Positions 28,847-61,981 of a stretch of 64,000 nucleotides of DNA are shown here, piece by piece. The DNA comes from Candidatus Rokuibacteriota bacterium (GTDB lineage: Bacteria > Methylomirabilota > Methylomirabilia > Rokubacteriales > CSP1-6): NCBI GenBank assembly GCA_003220435.1, contig QHSL01000062.1, positions 1 to 64,000 of the forward strand. The letters are read 5' to 3'. The notes beneath the pieces are model-generated. The model made no database searches. It saw only the letters and a program-made list of their open reading frames with translations, and was not told the origin of the DNA. The stretch's first letter is position 1. Every line of letters starts with the position of its first letter. A program made the position numbers and the translations under genes.

Positions 28847-29155
28847 TCACGCCAGATCCACTTCGACGGCGGTGCCGCTGACGCGGACGGGATAGACCTT
28901 CACCGAAAAATCTGGCGCGACACGGCAGGCGCCGCTCGTGAGGTCGAAGTCGTAGCCGTGCCATGGGCACACCACCGCGCCGCCCTCGAGCCAGCCTTCG
29001 GCGAGCGGGCCGTCCTCGTGCGGGCAGACGGGACTGCAGGCATAGAAGCGGCCGTTGCCACCGTTGAACAGCGCCAGCGAGATCCCGTCGCGCTCGATGA
29101 ACGCGCCCTCGCCGACGGCGATCTCGTCCAGCTCGGCAACCTTGACGAACGCCAT
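28847..29155 (-). CDS. Rieske [2Fe-2S] protein
   Basis: A 102-residue Rieske ferredoxin, soluble and without signal peptide. The cluster ligands are in VCPHEDG and VCPWHGYDFD, the C-x-H ... C-x-x-H pattern. It resembles the small subunit of NADH-nitrite reductase and dioxygenase ferredoxins. The ATG overlaps the stop of the upstream DsbA-family selenoprotein (TGATG), and no strong Shine-Dalgarno precedes it, so translation is probably coupled. It likely carries electrons to an unidentified partner. Confidence 0.9.
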   Translation of the reverse strand: MAFVKVAELDEIAVGEGAFIERDGISLALFNGGNGRFYACSPVCPHEDGPLAEGWLEGGAVVCPWHGYDFDLTSGACRVAPDFSVKVYPVRVSGTAVEVDLA

Positions 29156-29751
29156 CAGCGTCGCGCCTTCAACGCGTCCTCGACGAGCGCGCGCAGCTCT
29201 TCGAGCGGGAGCCCGCCGACGATCTTGCGACCGTTGATGAGGAAGGTCGGCGTGCCGGTGATGCCGAGCGCCTGGGCCTGCACGACGTCCGCCTCGACCT
29301 GAGCCGCGTACCGCCGCTCGTCGACACAACGGGTGAATTCGGTGAGGTTGAGGCCGAGCTCGGTGGCGTAGCGCAGCAGGTCGTCGCGGCGAAACGCCGG
29401 CTGCGCCTCGAAGAGCAGATCATGGTAGGGCCAGTATTTTCCGGCGGCGCCGGCGCAGCGCGCGGCCTCGTGCGCCCCGCGCGCCAGCGTGTGCATGGGC
29501 AGCGGGCGATCCTTGAAGACGAGCCGGATGCGACCGTCGTACTCCTGCATGATCGCGTCCAGCGACCGCTGGACGTTTCGGCAGTGTGGTCACTGGTAGT
29601 CCGAGAACTCGATGATCGTGACCGCCGCGTCGGCGGGACCCTTGACCATCGCGGCGTACAGCGTGAGCTCGATCTGCGCGCCGGCGCCGGGCGGTCGCGC
29701 GGTGGATGCGACGACAAGGGCGACGATCACGAGCAGGAATCTATAGTACAC
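29155..29751 (-). CDS. DsbA-family selenoprotein with UPHC active site
   Basis: A 198-residue thiol-disulfide oxidoreductase read through an in-frame TGA. The N-terminus is a signal peptide (YYRFLLVIVALVVAS, cleavage near GAGAQ), so it acts outside the cytoplasm. FSDYQ is followed by TGA (29592-29590) and then PHC, exactly where DsbA/Thioredoxin_4 proteins have C-x-x-C; the frame continues with RLVFKDRPLPMH and the cis-Pro motif GTPTFLING to a normal TGA stop. Selenocysteine is residue 54 and the resolving Cys is 57. A SECIS-like hairpin follows the TGA. The GTG at 29751 is the probable start; CTG at 29739 and an ATG further upstream are alternatives. The stop overlaps the Rieske start. Confidence 0.88.
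29556..29575 (-). promoter_or_regulatory. Bacterial SECIS-type hairpin of the DsbA-family selenoprotein
   Basis: Fourteen bases after the TGA the mRNA forms a perfect 8-bp stem, CGUCCAGC paired with GCUGGACG, closed by a GGUC loop. The loop begins 23 bases after the TGA. Bacterial SECIS elements need a short stem with a G at the start of the apical loop about 16-37 bases after UGA, so this fits well and resembles the GGUC loop of E. coli fdhF. Confidence 0.82.
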
Positions 29752-29841: not shown

Positions 29842-30300
29842 ATGGACAACCTGGTCGAGCTCGTGTTCGGCACGTATCCCTCGTGGTCTCACCTGGTGGT
29901 GCGCCTCGTGCTGGGCATCGTCTTCTTCGCCCACGGCGCCCAGAAAGTCTTCGGGTGGTTCGGCGGCCGCGGGCTGTCGGCGACCATCGGCGGATTCCGG
30001 CAGATGCACATCCCGCCGGCGGCGACCGTCCTCGCCGCGTTCACCGAGTGCTTCGGCGGGCTGGCGATGATCGTCGGTTTCCTGGCGCGCCCCGCGGGGG
30101 TGGGGCTCGTCGTCGTGATGCTGGTGGCCATCGCGAAGGTGCACGGGCCGAACGGGTTGTTCCTCAACATGATGATGACCCCGGGCAAGGGACACGGTTA
30201 CGAGTTCAACCTGGCGCTGATCGCCATGGCGTTGTCGATCGTCATCGGTGGCGCCGGGTTGCTGTCGATCGACCGGATCATCGCGCCGCTCGGCAACTAG
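29842..30300 (+). CDS. DoxX family membrane protein
   Basis: A 152-residue protein with four hydrophobic helices. RLVLGIVFFAHGAQKVFGWF near residue 22 is the DoxX signature, followed by FGGRGLSATIGGF and GKGHGYEFNLAL. DoxX-like proteins are inner-membrane redox-related proteins, some tied to thiosulfate:quinone reduction or oxidative stress. ATG start with AGGAGG five bases upstream. The start of the DsbA-family selenoprotein lies 90 bases away, divergently, so the two may share control. Confidence 0.9.
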   Translation: MDNLVELVFGTYPSWSHLVVRLVLGIVFFAHGAQKVFGWFGGRGLSATIGGFRQMHIPPAATVLAAFTECFGGLAMIVGFLARPAGVGLVVVMLVAIAKVHGPNGLFLNMMMTPGKGHGYEFNLALIAMALSIVIGGAGLLSIDRIIAPLGN

Positions 30301-60596: not shown

Positions 60597-61244
60597 ATGC
60601 GGCGCGATCTCGCCCTGACCCTCGCGGTCGGCGTCGTCGCCGCGGTCGTGGGGACGGGATTCCTGGCGATCATGCGGCCGGGACCAGGTGCCCCTGCAGC
60701 AGCCCCCGAGGAACCGGCGGCTCCACGTTTCGAGGGCTCGAGCGAAGGGGCGCCGGCGCCCGATCGACTCGCGATAGCCCTGGACGAGGCGGCGCGCGAG
60801 CTCGATCTGGTCCGCCCGCCGCGCCCGAGGCTGGCCGACGACTTCGCTGTGGCCCTCGTGCGCGGCGACACCTTCCGGCTTCGTGAGCAGCGGGGCAAGC
60901 CGGTCATGATCAACTTCTGGGCGACGTGGTGCGCACCGTGCCGTGAGGAGATGCCGGCGATGGAGCGCCTCTATCGCCGATACAAGGAGCAGGGCTTCGT
61001 GATGCTCGCGGTCTCCATCGACTCGGACCTGGCCCTCGTGACTCCCTTCCTGGAGGCCCACAAGCTCACGTTCCCGGTGGCGCTCGACGCGAAGATGGAA
61101 CTGGCCAACACATACCGTGTTCGTGCGCTGCCCTCGAGCTTCATCGTCGACCGCCAGCGTTACCTCGCGGCGCTGGCGCTGGGCCCCCGCGCGTGGGACA
61201 GCCGCGCTGCTCACTCGCTGGTCGAGGGGATGCTCCGCCAGTGA
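60597..61244 (+). CDS. TlpA/ResA-like membrane-anchored thioredoxin
   Basis: A 215-residue protein with an N-terminal signal anchor (LALTLAVGVVAAVVGTGFLA), a Pro/Ala-rich linker and a thioredoxin domain with active site WATWCAPCREEMP. The cis-Pro is in ALPSSFIVD. It should reduce disulfides of apocytochrome c or other envelope proteins, receiving electrons from CcdA, encoded next to it. Its stop overlaps the CcdA start by GTGA, so the two are made together. The start is the ATG after AAGGA. Confidence 0.9.
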   Translation: MRRDLALTLAVGVVAAVVGTGFLAIMRPGPGAPAAAPEEPAAPRFEGSSEGAPAPDRLAIALDEAARELDLVRPPRPRLADDFAVALVRGDTFRLREQRGKPVMINFWATWCAPCREEMPAMERLYRRYKEQGFVMLAVSIDSDLALVTPFLEAHKLTFPVALDAKMELANTYRVRALPSSFIVDRQRYLAALALGPRAWDSRAAHSLVEGMLRQ

Positions 61245-61981
61245 CGGGTGAGTCGCTCGGCGTTGCGGTCGCGTTCAGCGCGGGGCTCTTCTCGTTCCTC
61301 TCGCCGTGCGTGCTACCGCTTTTCCCATCGTACGTGTCGTTCATCACGGGCATGTCGGTCGCCGATCTCACCGCCGACCTCACGGCGGCGGCGCGCCGGC
61401 GCGTCCTGATCCACGCCGCGGCGTTCGTCCTCGGATTCTCCCTGGTCTTCGTGGCGCTGGGCGCCTCGTTCAGCGCGGCCGGGCAGTTCCTGCTGGACTA
61501 TCGCGACTGGATTAGGCGGATCGGCGGAGTGCTGATCGTGGTATTCGGGCTCTACATCATCGGCATTCTCCGGATCGGCCTCTTCGGGCGGACCCAGCAG
61601 TGGCAGCTCAGGGAGAAGCCGGCCGGCTACCTCGGCTCGCTCGCGGTGGGCATCACCTTCGCGATCGGCTGGACGCCCTGCGTCGGTCCTATCCTGGGCG
61701 CGATCCTCTCGCTCGCCGGCACCTCTGAGACGGTCCAGCGGGGCATCGGCCTGCTCGTCGCCTACTCGGCGGGCCTGGGCCTGCCGTTCCTGGTCTCGGC
61801 GGCGGCGCTGGGTCCGTTCCTCAGCTTCTTCAGGCGCTACCGGCCGTTCATCCCGATCGTGGAGCGCGCGGCCGGCCTCGTCCTCGTCGTCGTCGGCGTC
61901 CTCGTGTTCACGAACTACTATGTTGTCCTGAACTCCTGGGCGATCTCGCTCACCCCCGACTGGCTCCTGAAGCGGCTGTAG
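61241..61981 (+). CDS. ccdA: Cytochrome c biogenesis protein CcdA
   Basis: A 246-residue inner-membrane protein with six helices that carries reducing power from cytoplasmic thioredoxin to the periplasm. The redox Cys pair lies in SPCVLPLFPSY (helix 1) and GWTPCVGPILG (helix 4). GTG start in a GTGA overlap with the TlpA stop. Operon partner of the preceding TlpA-like protein in the c-type cytochrome or disulfide pathway. Confidence 0.94.
   Translation: MTGESLGVAVAFSAGLFSFLSPCVLPLFPSYVSFITGMSVADLTADLTAAARRRVLIHAAAFVLGFSLVFVALGASFSAAGQFLLDYRDWIRRIGGVLIVVFGLYIIGILRIGLFGRTQQWQLREKPAGYLGSLAVGITFAIGWTPCVGPILGAILSLAGTSETVQRGIGLLVAYSAGLGLPFLVSAAALGPFLSFFRRYRPFIPIVERAAGLVLVVVGVLVFTNYYVVLNSWAISLTPDWLLKRL

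Follow-up and report, generated by a model that had tools for sequence, protein, structure and literature searches.

Does the TGA that interrupts a thiol oxidoreductase gene of Candidatus Rokuibacteriota end translation, or does it encode selenocysteine (Sec)? The gene lies in the window, i.e., the whole stretch of 64,000 nucleotides analysed here, on contig C100 of a 5.4 Mb assembly that is 95.5% complete (Table 1). The frame reads VYYRFLLVIVALVVASTARPPGAGAQ...IIEFSDYQ-U-PHCRNVQRSLDAIMQEYDG...GITGTPTFLING... and runs for 144 sense codons beyond the internal TGA, until a second TGA (29157-29155, minus strand) closes it. The Pfam domain Thioredoxin_4 (PF13462, E = 1.8e-32) matches residues 34-192 and covers both flanks of the TGA, and is a better match than DSBA (PF01323, E = 4.1e-24). 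Within the context FSDYQ-U-PHC, the TGA stands at the first Cys of the CxxC of Thioredoxin_4/DsbA proteins, residue 54 being the catalytic Cys in every aligned Cys homologue; in an alignment of 29 sequences the C54 column is invariant, and so is T167-P168, which holds the cis-Pro. Hence a preliminary description of the locus, according to which the TGA replaces the first active-site Cys in a frame that stays open with all family motifs, was right on both points. The start MYY/VYY is kept among relatives and supports the GTG at 29751. The N-terminal segment reaches a hydropathy of 3.55, its pLDDT stays low as far as roughly residue 30, and the protein is predicted to be exported to the cell envelope. 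AlphaFold models a thioredoxin fold with confidence (mean pLDDT 90.9), and the domain match, the fold with its helical insert, the CxxC-type motif and the cis-Pro place the protein in the Thioredoxin_4/DsbA superfamily; the structures nearest to the model are TsdA/DsbA of Corynebacterium, a Silicibacter oxidoreductase and BdbD.

Table 1. Coordinates of the features discussed, in the window unless a locus of a relative is named.
Feature	Position	Strand	Remarks
DsbA/DsbG-like (Thioredoxin_4) selenoprotein gene	29155..29751	-	GTG start, 198 residues, predicted Sec54 in U-P-H-C, cis-Pro TGTPT
In-frame TGA, predicted Sec54 codon	29590..29592	-	TGA in 45 syntenic orthologues, TGC/TGT in 3
Predicted N-terminal signal segment	29683..29751	-	hydrophobic residues, then ARPPGAGAQ
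bSECIS hairpin	29556..29575	-	8 bp, GGUC tetraloop; apical loop 22 nt after UGA
Rieske [2Fe-2S] protein gene	28847..29155	-	102 aa, ferredoxin-like; Pfam Rieske E = 5.7e-17
DoxX-like membrane protein gene	29842..30300	+	152 aa, divergent; DoxX read from the sequence without a profile hit
CcdA/DsbD-type membrane thiol transporter gene	61193..61981	+	PF02683, 59.3 bits; not adjacent
TGA-bearing VKOR gene, relative G005	L165:3115-3558	-	Pfam 42-47 bits (range for the three)
TGA-bearing VKOR gene, relative G023	L166:3319-3765	-	as above
TGA-bearing VKOR gene, relative G025	L167:2919-3362	+	as above

A TGA is normally a stop, and a 131-residue open reading frame that begins past it (ATG at 29550) could be translated on its own, so that the gene might be a pseudogene or encode a truncated protein, or the TGA might be an assembly error. 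Orthologues were searched, reading through stops, in 148 genomes, the named relatives being metagenome genomes of Candidatus Rokubacteria/Rokuibacteriota, and the gene with its single TGA proved present throughout the family (in G024 the matched stretch holds a TAA in addition). Of the 48 syntenic Rokubacteria orthologues, 45, the window gene among them, have TGA as codon 54, and three have TGC or TGT; on inspection, all 45 have the TGA at the active-site position. The flanking genes, upstream for a NYN protein and holin-like/DoxX membrane proteins, downstream for LAB_N, a class-V aminotransferase and a 2-hydroxyacid dehydrogenase, are kept in most loci, which marks these genes as true orthologues. 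Resequencing that returned a Cys codon had been named as an observation able to overturn the Sec reading, but the recurrence of the TGA in 44 relatives excludes a sequencing error. Downstream of the TGA (145 codons) the nearest relative differs by 18 synonymous and 10 non-synonymous codon changes, and upstream of it (52 codons) by 7 and 8, respectively; judging from these counts, change downstream of the TGA is of the purifying type. A stop or an error accords poorly with this pattern, with the same TGA in 45 sequences across the family, and with the covarying hairpin and the Sec machinery described below, and we hold it to be very improbable.

The preliminary description had also pointed to an 8-bp hairpin with a GGUC loop and considered it to follow the rules of bacterial SECIS elements. 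The hairpin, CGUCCAGC-GGUC-GCUGGACG, has its first base 14 nt past the UGA and a minimum free energy (MFE) of -14.9 kcal/mol, and an equally good fold arose in 9 of 200 shuffles. The bSECIS model asks for a loop of 3-9 nt with a G within its first two bases, a stem of 4-16 bp, a distance of 16-37 nt from the UGA and an MFE of at most -7.5 (PMC13188914), and the hairpin falls inside all of these limits with its 4-nt GGUC loop, 8 bp, 22 nt and -14.9 kcal/mol. Taken singly, it has a fold z-score between -1.5 and -2.1. A scan of the window for TGA codons followed by at least 60 open codons returned 318 sites, several of which carry chance hairpins of at least 8 bp, so that a hairpin by itself is not decisive; some of those in this GC-rich window are longer than the one considered here. 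The other TGA candidates were unconvincing by eye, with no thiol motif in a recognisable protein context. Three features exceed what chance would give, namely the homology on both sides of the TGA, the presence of the TGA in 45 of the 48 syntenic orthologues and the covariation of the stem.

The position of the hairpin is constant in all Sec sequences, mostly as TCCAGC-loop-GCTGGA with loops GGTC, AGGT, GGGC or GGAC. Covariation was counted in 43 distinct sequences, which are related to one another, so that the changes are not independent events: two-sided changes affect the pairs 18-35 (G-C to C-G), 19-34 (U-A to C-G) and 20-33 (C-G to U-A), and the loop-closing pair 25-28 also covaries, from G-C to A-U in 11 sequences. 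Each of these pairs joins two codons, so that the amino acids vary in concert (V-D, L-E, A-G, V-N), and they appear to follow the RNA pairing in a way that protein function would not obviously demand. All 45 Sec sequences keep at least five of the seven fixed pairs and 41 keep at least six, while among the 85 Cys homologues five pairs occur in five sequences and six or more in none. When the sequences were recoded synonymously, the stem came out as good as the observed one or better in, on average, 13% of cases for the Sec sequences and 59% for the Cys homologues, the mean MFE z-scores being -1.86 and +0.12, respectively.

The presence of selA, selB, selC and selD in the same genome was a further point on which the preliminary description wanted the Sec reading judged, and the full set was found. 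A tRNA-Sec (69.8 bits, anticodon TCA) lies together with selB (351 bits) and selA (569 bits) on contig C138, and selD (341 bits; C100:66727-67671, L153) shares its contig with the window, from whose end it is 2.7 kb away. The gene selD is itself a TGA-bearing selenoprotein gene (...AACAGUASKM..., CAG-U-ASK), its TGA being followed by a bSECIS-like 8-bp hairpin with a GAUC loop, in a geometry resembling that of the DsbA-like gene. Of the 57 genomes of the Rokubacteria family, 51 have a selA match above the cut-off and 46 a tRNA-Sec. Contamination is an unlikely origin of the sel genes; a sister genome (G003) has selA and tRNA-Sec on one contig, and their matching spacing argues against it. Neither gene was found in the assemblies of four TGA-bearing relatives, G038 (listed as 100% complete), G039, G029 and G055, probably owing to assembly gaps or lost contigs. 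The sel cluster on C138 has a 5S rRNA gene at most about 11 kb away, a location by which lost contigs perhaps explain its absence from these four. An open frame across a UGA would suit any residue, including Trp or Cys inserted through a reassigned code or a suppressor, but UGA terminates other genes and the selenoprotein gene itself, the position is that of the catalytic Cys in all aligned Cys homologues, and there is a tRNA-Sec that decodes UGA as well as a dedicated bSECIS; such recoding seems to us even less credible than a stop.

We are therefore highly confident in reading the gene as that of a putative exported DsbA/DsbG-like (Thioredoxin_4) thiol-disulfide oxidoreductase, with Sec54 decoded from UGA via the downstream hairpin. 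The sequences establish that a UGA lies in frame, that the bSECIS is conserved, that the Sec machinery is complete, to which family and fold the protein belongs, and that some relatives have Cys instead; the insertion of Sec itself, export and the catalytic direction are predicted. The selenium-dependent envelope oxidoreductase proposed at the outset thus gains support from the machinery, the conserved TGA and the covarying bSECIS, its Sec incorporation and activity being predictions. SelB and Sec-tRNA would decode the UGA under the direction of the hairpin, and selenocysteine would stand where the active site otherwise has its N-terminal, nucleophilic Cys. Outside the cytoplasm, a Sec54-Cys57 selenenylsulfide would be exchanged with substrate thiols, with Sec54 presumably the attacking and Cys57 the resolving residue, as family knowledge suggests; the exchange would be quicker than with Cys, and recovery from over-oxidation easier.

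The comparison of Sec and Cys forms at residue 54, which had been suggested as a check, is afforded by the three syntenic Cys orthologues, in G051, G056 and G010 (L149, L150 and L151). Both selA and tRNA-Sec occur in G056 and G010, and neither was found in G051 (95% complete). In the tree, 44 Sec and the three Cys rows group together with support (100/99), the Cys forms lying inside the Sec group, and three Sec/Cys label changes are needed; most simply, and with inferred polarity, these would represent one gain of Sec and two reversions to Cys. One of the two apparent reversion lineages includes G051. Such natural Sec-to-Cys reversions at one locus let the benefit of Sec be measured.

The protein may act as oxidase, isomerase or reductase. 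DsbB and VKOR were looked for in its own genome (95.5% complete) and neither was found, so that a classical DsbA relay would be hypothetical; the CcdA/DsbD-type protein is the only one found among the three families of membrane electron partners sought there. Sec is typical of enzymes that need quick reduction. These observations, and the name DsbG-like borne by the nearest catalogued selenoprotein, would suit a selenoprotein that is not a DsbA-type oxidase, namely a DsbG/ScsC-like reductase, an isomerase or a peroxidase-type enzyme fed by CcdA/DsbD. Against this, CPHC is the DsbA motif, two oxidases of the DsbA type, TsdA and BdbD, are among the nearest solved folds, and 24 of the 57 family genomes have a VKOR-family match; we give the reductive or protective role somewhat less than an even chance. 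As to partners closer by, the ATG of the Rieske gene overlaps the selenoprotein stop by one base (TGATG), and the two proteins are likely co-translated. In most relatives the DoxX-like gene also sits divergently beside the selenoprotein gene, and both the Rieske and the DoxX-like proteins are candidate electron partners.

The preliminary description was unaware that UxxC selenoproteins of the Thioredoxin_4/DsbG-like type had already been catalogued. DsbA-like and DsbG-like forms were described in 2005-2006 (PMC1088965, PMC1794560), by 2016 the DsbA-like group counted 45 sequences in 41 organisms (PMC5029168), and the DsbG-like selenoprotein has been filed under Thioredoxin_4 (PMC9312934). With the latter (NF041057, Rcas_1661; PMC9312934, PMC13188914) the window protein shares PF13462, UxxC and a predicted extracytoplasmic thioredoxin-like nature, but its score is 106 bits where the cut-off is 190, over model positions 81-246 of 247 only, and it has no Cys before Sec54 that could be that of a lipobox, so that it does not appear to be a lipoprotein; it falls in a separate Rokubacteria clade. 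A match below the cut-off of what is a lipoprotein model indicates a distinct, family-wide member of the known UxxC class. The DsbA-like selenoprotein first seen in the Sargasso Sea selenoproteome (PF01323/COG2761; PMC1088965) likewise has UxxC at a DsbA-type site and a bSECIS, but the COG2761 (FrnE-like) group is another branch, and the window protein fits PF13462 better. DsbA/TsdA of C. diphtheriae (4pwo, 7unn) and BdbD of B. subtilis (3eu3) resemble it at about 26-31% identity and TM 0.72-0.77 by query length, but have Cys where the window protein has Sec. UxxC Thioredoxin_4 selenoproteins are therefore known, and what is new is the conservation of one across most of a bacterial family not previously studied in this respect. 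On selenoproteins of Rokubacteria or Methylomirabilota, literature searches gave only a review mention of a Methylomirabilota MAG with 63 selenoproteins, and neither DsbA nor Rokubacteria is named in the text of the deep-Sep paper (PMC12013277). Automatic gene calling is apt to end the gene at residue 53 or to begin it past the TGA, in dozens of genomes of this soil and groundwater lineage, which is uncultured. Throughout the family, selenium appears to be used stably in an enzyme that is predicted to belong to the cell envelope.

In three relatives, G005, G023 and G025, which also have the Sec-DsbA, a membrane protein of the VKOR family carries an in-frame TGA in place of the second CxxC Cys (CPLU), which we take to be the quinone-side Cys. 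Its loop Cys are in CGADTSSC, and the 14 residues past the TGA, IAGHALHAAVAALL, are nearly identical (IVG in one). A hairpin GCGGC-GGTC-GCCGC, 26 nt after the TGA, is nucleotide-identical in all three, although synonymous positions outside it differ. VKOR goes unmentioned in a 2026 review of prokaryotic selenoproteins, and literature searches showed no such case; the CPLU VKOR is probably an undescribed selenoprotein, and would extend the use of selenium to the membrane step. We know of no described selenium-dependent pathway for disulfides from quinone to protein. That both halves of the envelope disulfide relay, Sec-DsbA and CPLU VKOR, are selenoproteins in some Rokubacteria is a tentative and rather unlikely proposal, and it concerns these relatives and not, as assembled, the organism of the window, in whose genome no VKOR was seen. 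Finally, two distant paralogues of the window protein (36-38% identity), with one internal TGA each, occur in G013 (C142:2441-2947) and G034 (C61:1606-2106), and are possible further Sec-containing thioredoxin-fold proteins.
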